A stretch of 20,507 nt of DNA, taken from IMG/VR virus record IMGVR_UViG_3300027749_000550, positions 1 to 20,507 of that record, one strand, 5' to 3'. Below the pieces are notes generated by a model. It was not told the DNA's origin, searched no databases, and saw only the letters and a program-made list of their open reading frames with translations. The translations under genes were made by a program, and so were the position numbers. Positions 809 through 13,467 of the stretch are shown here, one piece after another (the stretch's first letter is position 1; the number at the start of each line of letters is the position of its first letter). The DNA comes from a virus.

Positions 809-2211
809 TGCAACAATTCTTTTTTGATTCTCAAATACGACGCTACTTAATTCAGTTTGCTAGAATGTTTTCTGGTTTTCAGGTTGAGTTTGGCCGCAAT
901 GAATCAGCGGCACCCGGAACTGGTGATACATTATATCGTGTTCCCGTTCGTTATGGCGATAGTTCTCGTCAAGCGCAGACTATTATACAGGAAAATAGTG
1001 CTAGTAATATGCCGTCAACTCCATTGATGACTTTTTATGTCACTGGATTAGACTTTGACCGTCCTCGTATGCAGAATCCAACTTATGTTGATAACAAAAC
1101 TGTTCGTCAGCGTGAGTATGATGCTACTACAAATACATATGAAACTACACAGGGCAATGCGTTTCAAATAGAACGCTATATGCCAGCGCCTTATAAACTA
1201 TCCATCAACTTGGATATTTGGACTAGTAATACCAATCAAAAGATGCAGATTTTAGAACAAATATTACCATTGTTTAATCCGTCGTTGGAAATACAATCCA
1301 CTGATAATTTTTTAGACTGGACCAGTTTAAGTATTGTTGAATTAGTCAGCACAGGCTGGAGTAGTCGTTCCGTTCCGCAGGGCACAGAAGATCCTATTGA
1401 CATTAGTACTATTAAATTCGCACTACCAATTTGGTTGAGCTTGCCGGCTAAAGTTAAAAAACTTGGTGTTGTTGAAACTATTATTGCCTCTATCTATGAC
1501 GGGCAGGGTGATTTGGTCAATGCTATTAAAAACAATGATTTGTTATTGGGTACACGTCAATATATTACTCCGTTTGGATATAAAGTAGTATTAATTGGTA
1601 ATAAATTACAAATATTAGCACAGTCTGCTATTGTAGATGAACAAAATTATCAGTTACCTCCGCCCGATCCAGTTGAGCCAAGTAACTTAAACTGGACTCC
1701 CGTAGTCAATATGTATGGTGTGTTAAGGCCTGGCATCTCTATGATTGCTCTTACACAGGAAGATGGTAATAAAGTATATGGAACAGTGGCATTTGATCCT
1801 ACCAACGACCAGTTTTTATTGTTTACTATTATTGAGGAATCTGTTCCGTCTAATACATTGAGGCCATTGGATGCTGTTATAAATCCACAGGCCAGTGGAC
1901 CTGGTTATGGACTACCTGCGGCGGCTACTGGTCAGCGTTACTTGCTAACAGAAGCTACTGGCAGTGAGTCAGGTGGATATGCCGAAGCGTGGGTAGGTTC
2001 TAATAATCAACCATTGGTAGCTAATCCCAATGACATTATTGAATACAATGGCGGTAATTGGTTTGTTGATTTTAATGCTAAATCTAGTCCTGACAATACG
2101 CAATATTGCACAAATATTGTCACCGAGATACAATACAAGTGGATTGGTCATGGATGGGTCAAATCTTATCAAGGCCTATACGCCGGAGGCGAGTGGTCGC
2201 TTATTATATAA
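808..2211 (+). CDS. T4 gp15-like tail sheath stabiliser / tail completion protein
   Basis: This 467-aa protein opens like the gp15 family: an aromatic N-terminus followed by IRRYLIQFARMFSGFQVEF, then VPVRYGD and, further on, PLMTFYVTGLDFDRPRMQNP (about residues 70-90). In T4, gp15 caps the tail tube and sheath and joins the finished tail to the head neck. The segment around residues 125-225 (YMPAPYKLSINLDIWT, then LEQILPLFNPSLEIQ) also fits the family fold. T4 gp15 is about 270 aa; this one has an extra C-terminal part (about 230-467) ending in a Trp-rich stretch (NGGNWFVDF, YKWIGHGWVKSY, GGEWSLII), similar to what I recall from aquatic T4-like phages. The start ATG overlaps the previous stop (TAATG). 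The identity rests on motif recognition, not a search. Confidence 0.8.
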   Translation: MQQFFFDSQIRRYLIQFARMFSGFQVEFGRNESAAPGTGDTLYRVPVRYGDSSRQAQTIIQENSASNMPSTPLMTFYVTGLDFDRPRMQNPTYVDNKTVRQREYDATTNTYETTQGNAFQIERYMPAPYKLSINLDIWTSNTNQKMQILEQILPLFNPSLEIQSTDNFLDWTSLSIVELVSTGWSSRSVPQGTEDPIDISTIKFALPIWLSLPAKVKKLGVVETIIASIYDGQGDLVNAIKNNDLLLGTRQYITPFGYKVVLIGNKLQILAQSAIVDEQNYQLPPPDPVEPSNLNWTPVVNMYGVLRPGISMIALTQEDGNKVYGTVAFDPTNDQFLLFTIIEESVPSNTLRPLDAVINPQASGPGYGLPAAATGQRYLLTEATGSESGGYAEAWVGSNNQPLVANPNDIIEYNGGNWFVDFNAKSSPDNTQYCTNIVTEIQYKWIGHGWVKSYQGLYAGGEWSLII

Positions 2212-2245
2212 TTTTGTAGCGGCAGTTCAGTTACATATATACAAG

Positions 2246-2683
2246 ATGAGCAATATTGTGTCCGCTGTGGGAATTTGGTTTTATTCCCAGTCTACTAATC
2301 GCTACTTATATTTGCTGAGAGATGATCCTAAGCATCCAGATTCCTGGGGACTTGCAGGTGGAAAAATCGAACAGGGAGAAAGTATTATGGCTGCCATGGT
2401 TCGTGAGTGTGAGGAAGAGTTGGGCAGTATGCCTAAATATGTAAAATTAATTCCTTTGGAAAAATTTACAAGTGCAGATGGTGGATTTGAATATAATACT
2501 TTTTTTTGTATTACTGAAACAGAATTTACACCTGTTCTAAATGACGAACATTCGGGCTATGCTTGGATTGATTCGGGGACTTGGCCTAAGCCATTACATC
2601 CAGGATTATGGAGCACTATAAATTTTGCAGCGGTTAGAGATAAAATTTCTATTATACAGCAACAACTTCAAACATCACAGTGA
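2246..2683 (+). CDS. Nudix hydrolase
   Basis: A 145-aa Nudix-fold pyrophosphohydrolase. The Nudix box is complete: G39, E45, then R53-E54-C55-E56-E57-E58-L59-G60, matching Gx5Ex7REUxEExGU, with the metal-binding glutamates present. It follows DDPKHPDSWGLAGGK, typical of MutT-type enzymes. Family members cleave nucleoside diphosphates linked to another group; the substrate (damaged dNTP, ADP-ribose, NADH, RNA cap) cannot be told from sequence. T4 also encodes a Nudix enzyme (NudE). I chose the ATG at 2246 because the frame upstream overlaps the gp15-like gene and encodes no Nudix-like sequence; the gap to the gp15-like stop is 34 nt. No clear Shine-Dalgarno is visible. The last 16 nt overlap the convergent gene on the other strand. 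Confidence 0.88.
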   Translation: MSNIVSAVGIWFYSQSTNRYLYLLRDDPKHPDSWGLAGGKIEQGESIMAAMVRECEEELGSMPKYVKLIPLEKFTSADGGFEYNTFFCITETEFTPVLNDEHSGYAWIDSGTWPKPLHPGLWSTINFAAVRDKISIIQQQLQTSQ

Positions 2684-7633: not shown

Positions 7634-9832
7634 CATATTGTATGCGTTAAGTTGAACATAACCCAGTGGTGGGGTATAGACAAAAGGTTGCTGGCCAAAG
7701 TTAACGTCTAACAAAGGTGTTCCGTTGTTATAAGCAGATACTCCAGGCATAAATGTGCCAGTTAATCCACTATACGCTGTACCTTGACTTACATTATTTT
7801 TGTAAAATGTTAGTGTTCCAGTGCTAGTGTCATATGTAACACCAATCACATCACCTGTTGTCCAGGATGATCCATATGATGTACTTGCAGCATTGTTATA
7901 TTTTGTTCCACCGTTGTAGTAACCATAGCTACCAGCAGTTGATCCAATATAAGAAGCAACACCTGTCCAAACTTCCGTTGAAGCTGTGATACCAACTAGT
8001 GTACCGCTTGGTGAATAAGCAGTAATAGTTACTTCCCAATAATATTTGCCATTTGACATACCCATTGTGCCACTACAACTAGCATAAGTTCCAGCAGTAT
8101 TACTAAAGCGTAAACTGCCATTGGTTATAGTACCGTTATTGTTTAATGGATTATATACACAATAATTTGAAACTGAAGCATTTGTTAGTGTTGGTACATC
8201 TGTAACTGAATCGTAGGTAGCACCCGAAGTTAAACTAATATTGTTTACTGTAAAAGTATTATTATTCCCTGATGTATCTGTGCCTAGTGCGGCAGTAGAA
8301 ATGGTATTAGTAAATGGCAAATGAAATCCGTTAGTACCATAAGTGCCAGTATAGGAAATAGGTTGCCATACTCCAGTAGTAGAGTTAGTAGCACCAAATG
8401 AACTTGCTGATAATCCTTGTCCGTCAATGAAATTGACGTCAGTTAGATAACCGTCTGTATAAACGCTTCCGGCAGAATAAGCCATCATTTGTGATGGATA
8501 AGCAGGGGCATTTATTCTTATATTATCATTTAAAGAATAATAATTTGTTGTGGAAAATGAAGTTACTTGAGAACCGTTAACATAAACTAATATTCTGTTT
8601 GCTGTAGTTGCTTGTGTAGTATCAACTGAAACTTGAATATGATACCAAGCAGCAGGGTCACGATAAACGGCATTAGATACTAATGAAGTTCCAGAACCAT
8701 TAATAAGTATTTGTAATTGGTCTGAAGAGTTAAAAACCACCCAAAATATTATTGCTGCACCTGATGTATCGCTAATATAAATATAAGAAGTGGTAGATAA
8801 TTTTCCTCTTTTTATCCATCCAGACCATGTAAATTTTTGTGCGCTTCCAGTTGCTGTAGGAGTTCTATTTAAATAAGCACTACTACTACTTCTAAATCTC
8901 AATGAGTTAGTCATTAATGAGGCGCCCGATATAAGTGTGCCCGATGAATAAAAAGTATGTATAGTGTTGCCACCTGAACTGGTGATTGTTCCGCCACTAA
9001 ATTGTGGAGCTCCAGAGTAGGATACAACAACAATACCCGATCCACCGTTGCCACCATTAGTATTTGCTGCTTTTCCGCCACCGCCACCTGACCCTGTATT
9101 CGTACCACCGTTGCCACCTGCGCCGCCAGCTGTTCCTGCTGTACCTGCATTTAATCCACCTGTTCCAGCAGCTCCAACGTTTGTATTAGCAGCGCCGCCA
9201 CCGGCACCACCTTGGCCACCAGCTCCGGCATTACATGATGTTGCACTATTTTGGGCACCACCGCCACCACCTGCCGCCCAATAATAAGATGTGCCTAAAA
9301 TTGTAGATATTGCACCAATACCGCCAGCACCTGATTGACCGTCGGAGCCACCAGCACCTACCGCTCCGGCTCCACCGCCACCAGCTGCTGGATAATTATT
9401 GCTTGTGCCAGAAGTAGTTCCGCCAGCATATCCAACACCATAGCCATAAGTTGAATTTTGTGTGCTGGTACCTGGCGATAATGTTCCTGTTCCTGGTGGG
9501 ATTGGTATAACTCCACCGCCACCGCCTGATCCACCATTTGAGCCTGCTGTGTTATAGCCACCACCAGTTCCACCACCTAAGGCAATAAAATCAAAAGCAG
9601 TTGTATTTGTTCCATTTGATCCTGGGCTTCCGCCAGCCCCAACAGTTACAGTATAATTAGAGCCTGACCCTAATGTTATTGAGCCGGCTACCAATCCGCC
9701 ACCGCCGCCACCGCCAGCATATCCGCCGCTTGCGCCACCGCCAACTACAAGATAAGTTGCTGTAACAGGAGGTCCAACTGTAGCACTAACGCCACCTGTA
9801 AATGTCATTCCCCCGGTAATAGTTATAGTCAT
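7631..9832 (-). CDS. Tail adhesin: glycine-rich domain + LamG + SPRY
   Basis: A 733-aa modular protein. Residues 1-306: short head MTITITGGMTFTGG, then one glycine-rich domain opening YLVVGGGASGG and closing GGSGIVVVSYSG, with the linker TITSSGGNTIHTFYSSGTL. Residues about 307-470: a LamG/concanavalin-like sandwich (NSLRFRSSSSAYLNRTP, FTWSGWIKRG, WYHIQVSVD, ILVYVNGSQV, YLTDVNFIDGQ), a fold that commonly binds sugars. Residues about 590-733: a SPRY domain (GKYYWEV, then GDVIGVTYDTSTGTLTFYKN and GTFMPGVSAYN, ending QPFVYTPPLGYVQLN). The LamG part begins with its own methionine (M307), the usual first residue of stand-alone relatives, so the glycine-rich part looks fused on. No strong Shine-Dalgarno; a late-promoter-like GCTAAATA is 27 nt upstream. 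Likely a host-surface-binding virion protein. Confidence 0.85.
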   Translation of the reverse strand: MTITITGGMTFTGGVSATVGPPVTATYLVVGGGASGGYAGGGGGGGLVAGSITLGSGSNYTVTVGAGGSPGSNGTNTTAFDFIALGGGTGGGYNTAGSNGGSGGGGGVIPIPPGTGTLSPGTSTQNSTYGYGVGYAGGTTSGTSNNYPAAGGGGAGAVGAGGSDGQSGAGGIGAISTILGTSYYWAAGGGGGAQNSATSCNAGAGGQGGAGGGAANTNVGAAGTGGLNAGTAGTAGGAGGNGGTNTGSGGGGGKAANTNGGNGGSGIVVVSYSGAPQFSGGTITSSGGNTIHTFYSSGTLISGASLMTNSLRFRSSSSAYLNRTPTATGSAQKFTWSGWIKRGKLSTTSYIYISDTSGAAIIFWVVFNSSDQLQILINGSGTSLVSNAVYRDPAAWYHIQVSVDTTQATTANRILVYVNGSQVTSFSTTNYYSLNDNIRINAPAYPSQMMAYSAGSVYTDGYLTDVNFIDGQGLSASSFGATNSTTGVWQPISYTGTYGTNGFHLPFTNTISTAALGTDTSGNNNTFTVNNISLTSGATYDSVTDVPTLTNASVSNYCVYNPLNNNGTITNGSLRFSNTAGTYASCSGTMGMSNGKYYWEVTITAYSPSGTLVGITASTEVWTGVASYIGSTAGSYGYYNGGTKYNNAASTSYGSSWTTGDVIGVTYDTSTGTLTFYKNNVSQGTAYSGLTGTFMPGVSAYNNGTPLLDVNFGQQPFVYTPPLGYVQLNAYNM

Positions 9833-9858
9833 ATGTTATTGTGTAATTGTTATTACTA

Positions 9859-9866
9859 TATTTAGC
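9859..9866 (-). promoter_or_regulatory. Late-promoter-like site (GCTAAATA)
   Basis: Contains the TAAATA core of the T4 late consensus TATAAATA and lies 27 nt before the start of the 733-aa gene, just downstream of a small hairpin. One of the few gaps between genes here, so a transcription start is plausible, but no experimental support exists. Confidence 0.3.
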
Positions 9867-9875
9867 TTTAACGGC

Positions 9876-9897
9876 CCTGGTAAAACATACCCCAGGA
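9876..9897 (-). terminator. Small hairpin, possible weak terminator
   Basis: An inverted repeat CCTGG/CCAGG with an 11-nt loop sits in the 80-nt gap between the 121-aa and 733-aa genes. There is no U-tract after the stem on the - strand, so it is not a standard intrinsic terminator; it may be an RNA-processing or stability element, or chance. Confidence 0.22.
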
Positions 9898-9912
9898 ATT
9901 ACTATTTTACGA

Positions 9913-10278
9913 TCAAGCTACTAATACCCAGCTGGTTGTTGGCTCATCCCAATAGTATTGCTTGCCGTCTGTGGGAAATGGTGTTGGAGCAGCCCAAGTC
10001 CAAGTTGATTGATCGAGTGTCCAACTTGGATATGGTTGAGGCGCATAAAATACGTCATTCGTTGGGTCATATGTATAACCAATTCCAGCGTAATTACCGC
10101 GTAATGCTACACCACCATCTGGATTACCATCGGCTCCATAATGAACACCGCCACGGGTATTATAAGATGTTTGAATCCATGAACCTGGGCTTGTATCCAC
10201 AAAAGTTGTGAAAAAATCTGCTTCAGCTACAATAACTTGCGTTACTGTGCCATCTGTTACTTTAGCATAATGTGACAT
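9913..10278 (-). CDS. Small phage tail-region protein, paralogue of the 129-aa protein
   Basis: A 121-aa protein of a family common in aquatic T4-like phages near tail-fibre genes; function unknown. Motifs in order: MSHYAKV, FFTTFVDTSPGSWIQTSYNT, the conserved core NYAGIGYTYDPTNDVFYAP, PYPSWTLDQSTWTWAAP and a C-terminal DGKQYYWDEPTTSWV. Rich in Trp, Tyr and Pro; no signal peptide or membrane segment. It matches the 129-aa protein encoded 348 nt upstream along most of its length, so the two arose by duplication. Good Shine-Dalgarno (AAAGGAAAC) before the ATG, and a CATAAATA box 37 nt upstream. Likely a virion or assembly component of the fibre system (inference). Confidence 0.75.
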   Translation of the reverse strand: MSHYAKVTDGTVTQVIVAEADFFTTFVDTSPGSWIQTSYNTRGGVHYGADGNPDGGVALRGNYAGIGYTYDPTNDVFYAPQPYPSWTLDQSTWTWAAPTPFPTDGKQYYWDEPTTSWVLVA

Positions 10279-10314
10279 AGTTTGTTTCCTTTAAAAAGTT
10301 ATGTTATACTTAGA

Positions 10315-10322
10315 TATTTATG
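10315..10322 (-). promoter_or_regulatory. T4-late-promoter-like site (CATAAATA)
   Basis: Matches TATAAATA at 7 of 8 positions, 37 nt before the ATG of the 121-aa gene. It overlaps the end of the orphan adhesin C-terminus, whose stop codon supplies part of the box. Confidence 0.35.
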
Positions 10323-10350
10323 CGGTATAAGTTCCGCTTGATGTATAAGT
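10318..10350 (-). pseudogene. Remnant of a glycine-rich adhesin C-terminus
   Basis: Between the cupin stop and the 121-aa gene, the - strand encodes TYTSSGTYTA and a stop. This matches the C-termini of the 363-aa (TASGTYTA) and 355-aa (ATSGTYTA) adhesins. The frame is closed by a TAA at 10366-10368, so only this tail survives. The intact copy (363-aa gene end followed by the 129-aa gene) has the same order as remnant followed by 121-aa gene, which suggests duplication of the pair and later loss of the adhesin body, with the cupin gene now in its place. Confidence 0.55.
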
Positions 10351-10354
10351 TAAT

Positions 10355-10621
10355 CTACTCCATATTTACAAAAATAGTATTGTTCTCTAATGCTTCAATT
10401 TCATGCCATTCATTGGCAACTAAATTAACCGCATCATCTTTTGGCGTTAATACTATCTCTTTATTTTCTTTTCTGATAGCACAAGAACCAGTAATGCAAA
10501 CAGTTCCATGGCTATAAGTATGTTCGTGTTTTGGTAATCCCTCGCCTTTATTGGCAAAAAATTCACTAAATTGTACACTCCTATAGATAAAAGATCTATT
10601 TAACCTTGCTGGTGTTGTCAT
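10355..10621 (-). CDS. Small cupin-domain protein
   Basis: An 88-aa single-domain cupin. The first metal-binding motif is visible as KHEHTYSHG (H32, H34, H38) with Gly at 45, and the second as NEWHEIEALEN (H73), so a divalent metal site is plausible; the usual motif-1 Glu seems replaced by His38. Small cupins include sugar isomerases, dioxygenases and plain metal-binding proteins; no substrate can be assigned. I chose the ATG at 10621, because the longer frame needs a TTG start inside the upstream gene. The start is 4 nt after the stop of the 129-aa gene, without a clear Shine-Dalgarno, so translation is probably coupled. It is the only enzyme-like gene inside the fibre cluster and lies between two paralogous small tail genes. 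Confidence 0.72.
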   Translation of the reverse strand: MTTPARLNRSFIYRSVQFSEFFANKGEGLPKHEHTYSHGTVCITGSCAIRKENKEIVLTPKDDAVNLVANEWHEIEALENNTIFVNME

Positions 10622-10625
10622 TATA

Positions 10626-11015
10626 TTAGATAGAAGCAATAGTTGTTACTGGATCCCAAGATTTGGTGGTTTCATTCCAAATGTACTGCCCACCATTTGT
10701 AGGATAAGGCTGAGGCGCAGTCCAAGTCCATGTAGGAGCAGAAATTGTCCATGATGGGAAAGGTTGCGGAGCATAGAAAACATCGTTTACTGAGTCATAT
10801 GTATATCCAATACCAGCATAGTTAGCGCGAAGTGCCTTAGACTGATCTGGATCAGCTGTACTTGTATTAGGTGTGTAGTAAATTCCACCACGAGTATTGT
10901 ATGAAGTTTGAATCCAAGTACCCGGTGTTGTATCTACAAAGGTATCAAAAAACGATTGATCAGCAACGATTGCTTGCTCGACTAATCCGTTATTTACTTT
11001 TACAAAATGACCCAT
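10626..11015 (-). CDS. Small phage tail-region protein, paralogue of the 121-aa protein
   Basis: A 129-aa member of the same family as the 121-aa protein: MGHFVKV, FFDTFVDTTPGTWIQTSYNT, NYAGIGYTYDSVNDVFYAP, PFPSWTISAPTWTWTAP, and NGGQYIWNETTKSWDPV. It differs by a 7-8 residue insertion after the TRGG motif and by a short C-terminal extension (TTIASI). Strong Shine-Dalgarno (AAAGGAGAT) 7-8 nt before the ATG, the best in the window, and only 15 nt after the 363-aa adhesin stop. Function unknown; the constant position next to adhesin genes suggests a fibre-associated or assembly role. Confidence 0.75.
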   Translation of the reverse strand: MGHFVKVNNGLVEQAIVADQSFFDTFVDTTPGTWIQTSYNTRGGIYYTPNTSTADPDQSKALRANYAGIGYTYDSVNDVFYAPQPFPSWTISAPTWTWTAPQPYPTNGGQYIWNETTKSWDPVTTIASI

Positions 11016-11030
11016 TTAAATCTCCTTTAG

Positions 11031-12122
11031 TTATGCTGTATAGGTGCCAGAGGCGGTAAATTTAACAATAGTATTACTACCGCTTGTAGTGATTGTTGGG
11101 CTACCTGTGTATGTACCAGTATATGATGCTGTTGGTATGGACAAAATAACTACACCAGAGCCACCTGCGCCGCCAGCGTTTGTCACAGCAGAGCCTCCAC
11201 TTCCATTATTACGCTCTGCTCCACCACCACCGCCGCCAGTATTTACAGTTCCAGGATTGCCTGGCCCACCAGAACCAGCACCACCACCGCCATTACCACC
11301 TGCTCCAGGGACGCCACCAATTCCGCAAACAGTAACGGCTGCTCCGCCACCACCACCAGCATAATAAACAGCAGAGCCAGTAATAGATGAAGATAAGCCA
11401 ACACCGCCGGCACCAGCAGTTACACCAGAGGAGTTTCCACCTACAGCACCAGCACCACCACCACCGCCTTGACCAGCATTAGGAGGAGCGCCATTACCAC
11501 CTGCATTTCCTTGTCCTGATGTGCCGCTGGCTCCAGCACTACCCAAGGAACCGCCGCCACCACCTGATCCACCTGATAATGGTGGGTTTCCTGCAACATA
11601 TCCGCCACCGCCACCTCCACCTAATGCTACGGTTAGACCTGTAATAGAAGAATTTCCACCGCTAGCACCTGCGTAGCCAATATTTCCAAGGCCACCAGCA
11701 CCGCCAAGACCAACAGTGATTGTGTATTGTGTTCCTCTTACTAAATCTGTAGTTCCAGTTAACATACCGCCAGCACCACCACCGCCACCTAAATAACATC
11801 CACCACCACCGCCCCCGCCGGCAACTATAAGGTAAGAAACGTTAACAGAACCGGCTTTAATTGTAGTCCAAATTCCGTTGATATAAGCTTCTAATGCTCC
11901 ATAACTTGCTGTATTATATCTTATCATACCATTAGTTGGACTTGACGGTCGTTGAGCTGTATTGCCCACCGATACAGTAATAGCACCAGTAGAGTTACAA
12001 GTAATATTTTGATCGGTACCCGCAGTTAATGCGGCATTACCGTTGGTCTGTAGTTGTAATACTCCAGACGTATCTGAAGTTTCTACTAGTCCTGATGAGC
12101 TTGCGTTTATTGTAGTTGTCAT
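11031..12122 (-). CDS. Modular glycine-rich tail adhesin (363 aa)
   Basis: Residues 1-95 form a fibre head/stem: MTTTINASSSGLVETSDTSG, LQLQTNGNAALT, QNITCNSTGAI, then AQRPSSPTNGMIRYNT and YINGIWTTI, a stem motif seen in many phage fibre proteins. Residues about 98-320 are one glycine-rich domain (YLIVAGGGGGGG opening, TITVGLGGAGG, poly-Gly loops, AGGSGVVILSIP closing). The last 45 residues (SYTGTYTGSPTITTSGSNTI, then SGTYTA) match the end of the 1067-aa protein. Its ATG overlaps the stop of the 355-aa gene as ATGA, so it is translationally coupled. The head probably docks to the fibre or baseplate and the glycine-rich part binds the host (inference). Confidence 0.8.
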   Translation of the reverse strand: MTTTINASSSGLVETSDTSGVLQLQTNGNAALTAGTDQNITCNSTGAITVSVGNTAQRPSSPTNGMIRYNTASYGALEAYINGIWTTIKAGSVNVSYLIVAGGGGGGGCYLGGGGGAGGMLTGTTDLVRGTQYTITVGLGGAGGLGNIGYAGASGGNSSITGLTVALGGGGGGGYVAGNPPLSGGSGGGGGSLGSAGASGTSGQGNAGGNGAPPNAGQGGGGGAGAVGGNSSGVTAGAGGVGLSSSITGSAVYYAGGGGGAAVTVCGIGGVPGAGGNGGGGAGSGGPGNPGTVNTGGGGGGAERNNGSGGSAVTNAGGAGGSGVVILSIPTASYTGTYTGSPTITTSGSNTIVKFTASGTYTA

Positions 12123-13186
12123 GCTGTATAAGTTCCTGATGTAGCAAAACTTAAAATAGTATTAGCTCCTGATGTAGTAACAGTAGCGTTAGCATAAGAT
12201 CCTGAATAATTTATAGTTGGAACAGATAAAATAACTACGCCAGAGCCACCATAGCCGCCTGATCCGCCAGCAATTCCAGATTGGCCACCTGCTCCACCAC
12301 CGCCACCACCTAAATTTGCTGTAGCCGGCGAGGGCGCGGCGGCTGTATAAATTGATCCATTAGCGCCGCCACCGGCGCCACCGCTACCGCCAGTAGTACC
12401 ACTGACGTGGCCACCACCACCACCACCGCCAGCATAAGTTACACTTGAACCAGTTATAGAACTTGTGTTTCCAGACCCGCCGGCTCCGGCAAAGCTACTA
12501 GCAGCTGTTTGACCTGTAGAAAGTGCTCCGCCACCGCCGCCGCCAGAATAATATGTTGGGCCATTAGTACCGCCTCCTCCGTTAGACCCTTGCCCAGTAG
12601 TTCCAGTTCCACCACCAGTTGGTGTAGCTGGGCCTGAGCCACTGCCGCCGCCAGATCCGCCATTGCCGCCTATTGGTGGTTGTCCATTATATCCTTGTCC
12701 ACCACCACCGCCACCAATAGCTGTTTGGCTAAATGCTACTGAATTGCCTCCTTTTACATTTTCAGCGCCACCTGCGCCAACGGTAAATGAATAAATAGTG
12801 CCACCGGTAAGTGTAGTAGTTCCAGATAACAACCCGCCGCCGCCACCTCCGCCACCACCAGCCCATGTGCCGCCACCGCCACCTCCAGCTACTATAAGGT
12901 AAGAAGCTGTATATGATCCAGATTTAATTGCGGTCCAGCTTCCTAATATATAACCTTCTAATACCCCGCCGGTGGTATTATATCTAATCATACCATTAGT
13001 TGGACTACTTGGGCGTTGTGCTGTATTGCCAACAGGAACAGTAAACGTGCCAGTTCCATTACAAGTAAGATTTTGACTATTATCAATAGTTAGGGCAGCC
13101 GTGCTATTAGTTTGGAATTGTAAATTTCCCGAAGTATCTGCTGTTTCTATTAGACCAGCTGAACTTGCGTTTATTGTGGTTGTCAT
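12119..13186 (-). CDS. Modular glycine-rich tail adhesin (355 aa)
   Basis: Closest paralogue of the 363-aa protein: the same head (MTTTINASSAGLIETADTSG, QRPSSPTNGMIRYNT, YILGSWTAIKSG), one glycine-rich domain (SYLIVAGGGGGG opening, YSFTVGAGGAE, poly-Gly loops, GGSGVVILSVP closing), and a tail ending ATSGTYTA. The glycine-rich loops are quite different from those of the paralogue while the head is nearly the same, as expected for swapped or rapidly changing binding tips. I chose the ATG at 13186: it overlaps the upstream stop as ATGA, exactly as the next gene does, and gives the conserved MTTTINAS start; a longer frame from a TTG at 13201 is less likely. Confidence 0.8.
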   Translation of the reverse strand: MTTTINASSAGLIETADTSGNLQFQTNSTAALTIDNSQNLTCNGTGTFTVPVGNTAQRPSSPTNGMIRYNTTGGVLEGYILGSWTAIKSGSYTASYLIVAGGGGGGTWAGGGGGGGGGLLSGTTTLTGGTIYSFTVGAGGAENVKGGNSVAFSQTAIGGGGGGQGYNGQPPIGGNGGSGGGSGSGPATPTGGGTGTTGQGSNGGGGTNGPTYYSGGGGGGALSTGQTAASSFAGAGGSGNTSSITGSSVTYAGGGGGGGHVSGTTGGSGGAGGGANGSIYTAAAPSPATANLGGGGGGAGGQSGIAGGSGGYGGSGVVILSVPTINYSGSYANATVTTSGANTILSFATSGTYTA

Positions 13187-13467
13187 GTTAAAGTGAGCCA
13201 AGTATTAATAATATAAATTTCCATATTGGAAATTGTGGTGTTGTATCGCAACATTCCACTAACCGGACTTGCTGGGCGTTGTAGTGTGTTTCCAACTGGA
13301 ATAGTAAATGCTCCAGTGGAAGAGGCTGTAATGTTTTGTAGTGTGTCTATTGTTAGTGCTGTATTCCCAGAAGTTTGAAGTGAAAGATTGCCCGTGCTAT
13401 CAGCAGTTTTAACGATGGCTGTGGCTACTAATGCTGAACCTGGTTGTGCGTTAATTGTAGAGGCCAT
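13183..13467 (-). CDS. Head-domain-only fibre protein (94 aa)
   Basis: Contains only the head/stem module found at the N-termini of the 355- and 363-aa adhesins: MASTINAQPG, TADSTGNLSLQTSGNTALTI, TIPVGNTLQRPASPVSGMLRYNT and a final YIINTWLTLT, then stop. The glycine-rich tip is missing. The stop overlaps the ATG of the 355-aa gene (ATGA). It could be a truncated adhesin, a separate adaptor that forms mixed trimers with the full proteins, or simply a minimal fibre. Only a weak Shine-Dalgarno (CGGATAA) is seen. Coding is intact without frameshift, so I do not call it a pseudogene. Confidence 0.72.
   Translation of the reverse strand: MASTINAQPGSALVATAIVKTADSTGNLSLQTSGNTALTIDTLQNITASSTGAFTIPVGNTLQRPASPVSGMLRYNTTISNMEIYIINTWLTLT

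Follow-up and report, generated by a model that had tools for sequence, protein, structure and literature searches.

The window analysed here is the whole 20,507-nt stretch of virus DNA in IMG/VR record IMGVR_UViG_3300027749_000550. Within its tail-fibre cluster, a small cupin gene lies between two related small genes and directly before a ten-codon fragment that resembles the end of an adhesin. This arrangement raises the questions of whether the cupin took the place of a lost adhesin and of why a cupin should be encoded among fibre genes. A preliminary description of the sequence proposed that a unit of adhesin plus small gene was duplicated, and that the cupin then replaced the second adhesin body at what would be a cargo slot. 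Comparison with other phage loci (numbered with the prefix L below) leads to a different answer.

Organization of the locus

Five elements lie on the minus strand in the order adhesin, small1, cupin, scrap, small2. They are given here with the small1 tail on a line of its own:

11031-12122, minus strand: Gly-rich adhesin/fibre gene, 363 aa (Pfam Gly_rich_2), C-terminus KFTASGTYTA and stop
10626-11015, minus strand: small1, 129 aa, phrog_7759 family, proposed fibre chaperone
10629-10655, minus strand: small1 C-terminal tail DPVTTIASI; in phrog_7759 the tail is present only when the cupin follows
10355-10621, minus strand: cupin, 88 aa counted from ATG, starting 4 nt past the small1 stop
10318-10350, minus strand: adhesin 3' scrap, TYTSSGTYTA and stop, starting 4 nt past the cupin stop
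9913-10278, minus strand: small2, 121 aa, phrog_7759 family, C-terminus SWVLVA and stop, without the tail and without its own cupin

As first described, each small gene is preceded by an adhesin C-terminus, that of the intact 363-aa gene for small1 and the scrap for small2. The same cluster holds a second relic, a 94-aa ORF (13183-13467, minus strand) that corresponds to the adhesin N-terminal domain without its Gly-rich body; a 104-aa stub in L084 (4684-4998) resembles it. A NUDIX hydrolase ORF (2030-2683, plus strand) lies downstream of a tail-sheath-like gene and is convergent with the fibre cluster.

The cupin and the small gene before it

L002 (3821-5266) matches the window continuously over about 1.5 kb at 72% identity (positions 8674-10152 of the reverse complement). 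The match runs through the adhesin body, small1 and the cupin and stops at the cupin stop codon; the adhesin is the first gene of an adhesin-small1-cupin unit. The order of small gene and cupin is kept in L002, L003, L004, L005 and L007 and predominates in about 70 further loci. Because L002 is collinear and this order is conserved, the cupin is not replacement cargo: it belongs to small1 and does not occupy an adhesin's place, contrary to the proposed replacement of a second adhesin body. Most of the approximately 70 loci have the cupin without an adhesin trace, an arrangement that the preliminary description took to count against its own reading if found in an older branch; no rooted tree shows these loci to be older.

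Cupin homologues occur in 548 matching stretches of IMG/VR, whereas INPHARED has one record, the complete circular phage genome MW202879.1, in which the cupin (22945-23199) is without annotation; one scan of GTDB genomes found no relative. Nearly all of 59 non-redundant cupins with usable upstream sequence have a small ORF directly upstream, and a Gly-rich gene lies within 1 kb upstream in 38 of them. The cupin itself is 50-60% identical across unrelated phages, and the upstream small genes of 74 distinct cupin loci fall into 13 families, defined as groups that are mutually undetectable at E 1e-3 after removal of the last 10 residues. A search of the open-access literature found no report that connects a cupin with phage fibre chaperones.

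The suggestion of a cargo slot holds for a different position. In 65 of 94 loci the phrog_7759 small gene is immediately downstream of a Gly-rich adhesin, and this junction does receive other genes. HNH endonuclease genes occupy precisely this place, next to an intact adhesin, in L115 (4495-4989; scored as HNH_3, with a weak AP2 match) and L157 (2190-2699; called HNH by eye), a 2OG-Fe(II) oxygenase (Pfam 2OG-FeII_Oxy_3) lies there in L091, and similar-looking candidate genes do so in L099 and L102. The cupin, however, lies beyond the small gene, outside this junction.

Origin of the adhesin scrap

The scrap DNA, ACTTATACATCAAGCGGAACTTATACCGCATAA, translates to TYTSSGTYTA and a stop. It is identical at 28 of 33 bases, ungapped, to an adhesin end in L004 and at 27 of 33 to ends in L002, L003, L115 and others, against a background elsewhere in the window with a 99.9th percentile of 19 of 33 and a maximum of 25. 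The peptide matches an adhesin end at 9 of 10 residues. For comparison, 171,256 stop-terminated decapeptides were taken from outside ORFs of at least 80 aa and away from contig edges; in this set, matches of at least 8 of 10 were found only for the scrap, a relic in L015/L017 and an ambiguous 71-aa ORF in L149/L154, so that the concern that so short a match might be common by chance is answered. Since both DNA and decapeptide identity lie far above chance, the scrap is a true adhesin relic, as had been proposed, and an adhesin stood immediately before small2 in the past. An exact-DNA search with the spacer that adjoins the scrap returned a single match, an overlapping contig whose identity to the window is 100% in the compared stretch. 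A T4-like late promoter motif at the scrap (ATAAATA, 10315-10321) was also considered; the motif occurs 4 times in the window against 8.5 expected, and its presence here is thus no evidence for a promoter.

Gene-end scraps recur in such loci. In L203 (2181-2320) the cupin is a pseudogene: the stop of a tail-less small gene is followed directly by the last 22 cupin codons, a single deletion having taken the small gene's tail and all of the cupin but those codons. L015 (2901-3500) and L017 (3887-4486) are mosaics in which an ORF starting MYTRVTHQHD has a cupin C-terminus at its end; next comes MYTRF, fused to a scrap of an adhesin C-terminus.

Adhesins come directly or nearly directly after the cupin in L002 and L003, and for this reason the scrap in the window is most simply explained as what a deletion between the cupin and small2 left of a further adhesin, namely its 3' end. 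The same scrap is expected whether an adhesin was deleted or a whole adhesin-small1-cupin cassette was swapped in. In the latter history, a phage with an adhesin and small2 would have gained the cassette near the 3' end of its adhesin, and the scrap would be the recipient's. Adhesin ends are alike between genes and could have served as crossover points, and the closest relatives of small1 and small2 differ; but a simple deletion suffices given the adhesins after the cupin in L002 and L003, and L203 is a plain deletion that left a 3' scrap. We regard such a replacement as possible, although it is not the history that we expect. Duplication of an adhesin-plus-small-gene unit, with cupin cargo then replacing the second adhesin body, would account for the gene order and for the scrap before small2, and the small1 and small2 proteins are 64% identical. 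In the phrog_7759 tree, however, small1 clusters with L115 (support 0.89) and small2 with L088 (0.78), and many other phages separate the two, with low support on inner branches. Because each is closer to genes of other phages, they are not halves of a recent local duplication; with the cupin also collinear with small1 in L002 and beside a small gene in about 70 further loci, the duplication proposed at first is highly improbable.

A C-terminal tail that accompanies the cupin

At the 74 cupin loci, nearly all upstream small proteins, whatever their family, carry a tail with the consensus QPxTTGTQT[LIVF]. Counted from the C-terminus, position -5 is Gly in 59 loci, -9 is Pro in 53, -3 is Gln in 46 and -1 is L, I, V or F in 71. 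Tail codons vary synonymously while the residues stay, and the tail lies at distances of -4 to +4 nt from the cupin start. The small1 tail, DPVTTIASI, differs from this consensus in several residues. A conserved ORF of about 45-60 aa (IYPGSTPEFRxLxKxDG) separates the tagged small gene from the cupin in L034 (4864-5001), L038 (2694-2821) and L044 (4859-5001); the tail is still present in these loci despite the intervening ORF.

The association can be followed within single families. A second chaperone family, searched with a tail-trimmed alignment, has 43 non-redundant members, and the tail is present in 14 of 14 with a type-1 cupin compared with 1 of 29 without (Fisher 1.9e-10). When the four members on contigs that seeded the alignment are left out, the counts are 10 of 10 and 1 of 29 (about 2e-8). 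The single exception, L239, has a tail, and no cupin was found in its 24-kb fragment, while L251 is without a cupin and has a truncated tail, QPTTTG followed by a stop. The tree of the protein bodies shows at least nine cupin switches, and the tail comes and goes with the cupin. In phrog_7759, the pattern VT..[ST][IV], which was composed after the data were seen, ends 5 of 5 cupin-linked members (including small1, and including the near copies L003 and L004) and 0 of 83 others, and the cupin-linked members are scattered in the tree. The MW202879 chaperone, whose C-terminus is DQPITTGSQTL, has homologues in 346 INPHARED records (345 besides MW202879); among the best 40 of these 346 matches, only MW202879 itself has tail and cupin, and none of the others extends past residue 78, near the start of the tail. 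Since tail and cupin are neighbours in the DNA, one recombination can move both, as in L203, where one deletion removed both.

Other cupin types occur with other tails. A second cupin type (GHTHQFDHLTLL) stands behind small genes with tails unlike the consensus in L232 (1767-2120), L245, L096 and L106; tails found before this type are SGEIPSAVL, TPTTVATLP and QTPVVQLP, and two type-2 cupins come after the tail SGEIP[AS].[IV]L. L242, with a type-3 cupin only, has no tail. These sequences suggest that cupin types and tail types form matched pairs. Tandem cupins, type 1 and then type 3 (HFSDGLYAK), are found behind a tagged small gene in L243 (around 1740-2300), L220 and L068.

Small proteins as candidate fibre chaperones

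Neither NCBIfam nor Pfam gave a convincing family for the small proteins, and a PDB sequence search found no relative of the small1 family. The AF2 model of small1 has a pLDDT of 93.8, lowest (75) in the last block, which is the tail. Its sole solved structural match is 7ypx chain a, which, like Pam3 gp25, has 162 residues; residues 1-86 of small1 superpose on residues 3-60 of that chain over 56 residues at 2.0 Å, a weak match (Z 5.5, below 8; Foldseek E 1.4). In Pam3 gp25, residues 1-55 form a beta-sandwich, the fibre-binding domain, which grips the fibre at its Gly-rich and TNF-like part (PMC9608196). The small genes resemble the Pam3 gp25/Tfa family (TfaMu) in that the proposed chaperone partners a fibre with a Gly-rich domain and the N-terminal part of small1 superposes, though weakly, on gp25. 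They differ in having a tail of about 10 residues, a separate cupin gene and no C-terminal helical trimerisation domain, the small1 model having no helix of at least 4 residues after residue 25. In other phages, members of the second small family bear the annotation tail fibre assembly protein. Given this annotation, the gene position and the modest gp25 match, the small proteins are most likely chaperones of the tail fibre.

Predicted nature of the cupin

The AF2 model of the cupin (pLDDT 97) matches many cupins (Foldseek, VIA; Z up to 12.3). H32, H34, H38 and H73 are invariant in 56 cupin sequences and reproduce the HxHxxxH...H metal-ligand pattern of TM1459-type cupins; the manganese ligands of TM1459 are H52, H54, H58 and H92 (PMC5031596). 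Likeness to the TM1459-type manganese cupins extends to the fold (Z about 11.8 over 87 residues) and to the same spacing of the four His, but identity is about 15%, and the phage gene is linked to fibre chaperones. Predicted fold and four-His pattern together mark the protein as a putative small metal-type cupin encoded alongside a chaperone-like gene. Against Pfam Cupin_2 (PF07883) it scores 17.9 bits and the L010 cupin 15.2, below the gathering cut-off of 27.2. CelOCE and KdgF are its best PDB sequence-profile matches (E 1.5e-5 and 4.6e-4) and have close folds, but they act on sugar substrates, share 20-26% identity and have another genomic setting. The 2OG-Fe(II) oxygenases beside phage fibre genes belong to the same double-stranded beta-helix metalloprotein class and occur in the same fibre loci (L091), yet they are larger (about 190 aa), of another family and without any tail association seen. 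Many cupins are equally close in fold, so that the reaction cannot be read from the fold, although strict conservation of the four His would favour chemistry.

Proposed explanation and its alternatives

In the explanation that we favour with moderate confidence, the window contains an adhesin-small1-cupin unit and, after it, small2 as a second chaperone-like gene; the adhesin that belonged to small2 was probably removed by a deletion from just past the cupin stop to the adhesin's last 11 codons. Chaperones of any family carry a short C-terminal tail where the cupin follows, and the cupin may recognise this free tail. It would then either hold chaperones together in fibre assembly or oxidise or otherwise modify the tail. 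In Pam3 and Mu, a variable fibre-binding part of the chaperone is joined to a conserved C-terminal part (PMC9608196), whereas here the variable bodies have only the short tail in common and the cupin is the constant partner. A bolder form, in which cupins covalently modify the tails of unrelated fibre chaperones, with types matched, and in which this modification licenses or times fibre assembly, is rather improbable.

The tail might instead be mere DNA that travels with the cupin gene, as a start overlap, a means of translational coupling or a cassette border, with no function in the protein. In many loci there is an overlap of 1 or 4 nt between its codons and the cupin start, and L203 lost both in one deletion; but its residues are kept while codons vary, it persists across gaps of +1 to +4 nt and with an ORF between, the partner bodies are unrelated, and the tail corresponds to the cupin type. 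We consider passenger DNA a doubtful account, though one that deserves some weight. It is clearly improbable that the cupin is a host-directed metabolic or sugar enzyme (KdgF-like or CelOCE-like), or an enzyme that acts on the host surface at the fibre tip, with its place beside chaperones incidental. The best solved relatives by sequence and fold do include CelOCE and KdgF, but the fold similarity ties with many cupins; its fixed place behind chaperone-like genes and its co-switching with the tail argue against such a role, and identity of 50-60% across unrelated phages does not resemble host-driven diversity.

Implications

That phage fibre loci exchange fibres and chaperones in modular fashion is already known, and the present loci indicate that they leave gene-end scraps upon cassette loss. 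The new element is a short tail that recurs among chaperone-like proteins from at least 13 families and whose presence follows that of a single small metal cupin. This suggests that tail and cupin form a tag-and-cupin pair, not described before, in the assembly of phage tail fibres. A testable partner is thereby provided for hundreds of phage genes that lack annotation. The cupin might be an adaptor common to many chaperones, or fibre assembly might include a step of protein modification.
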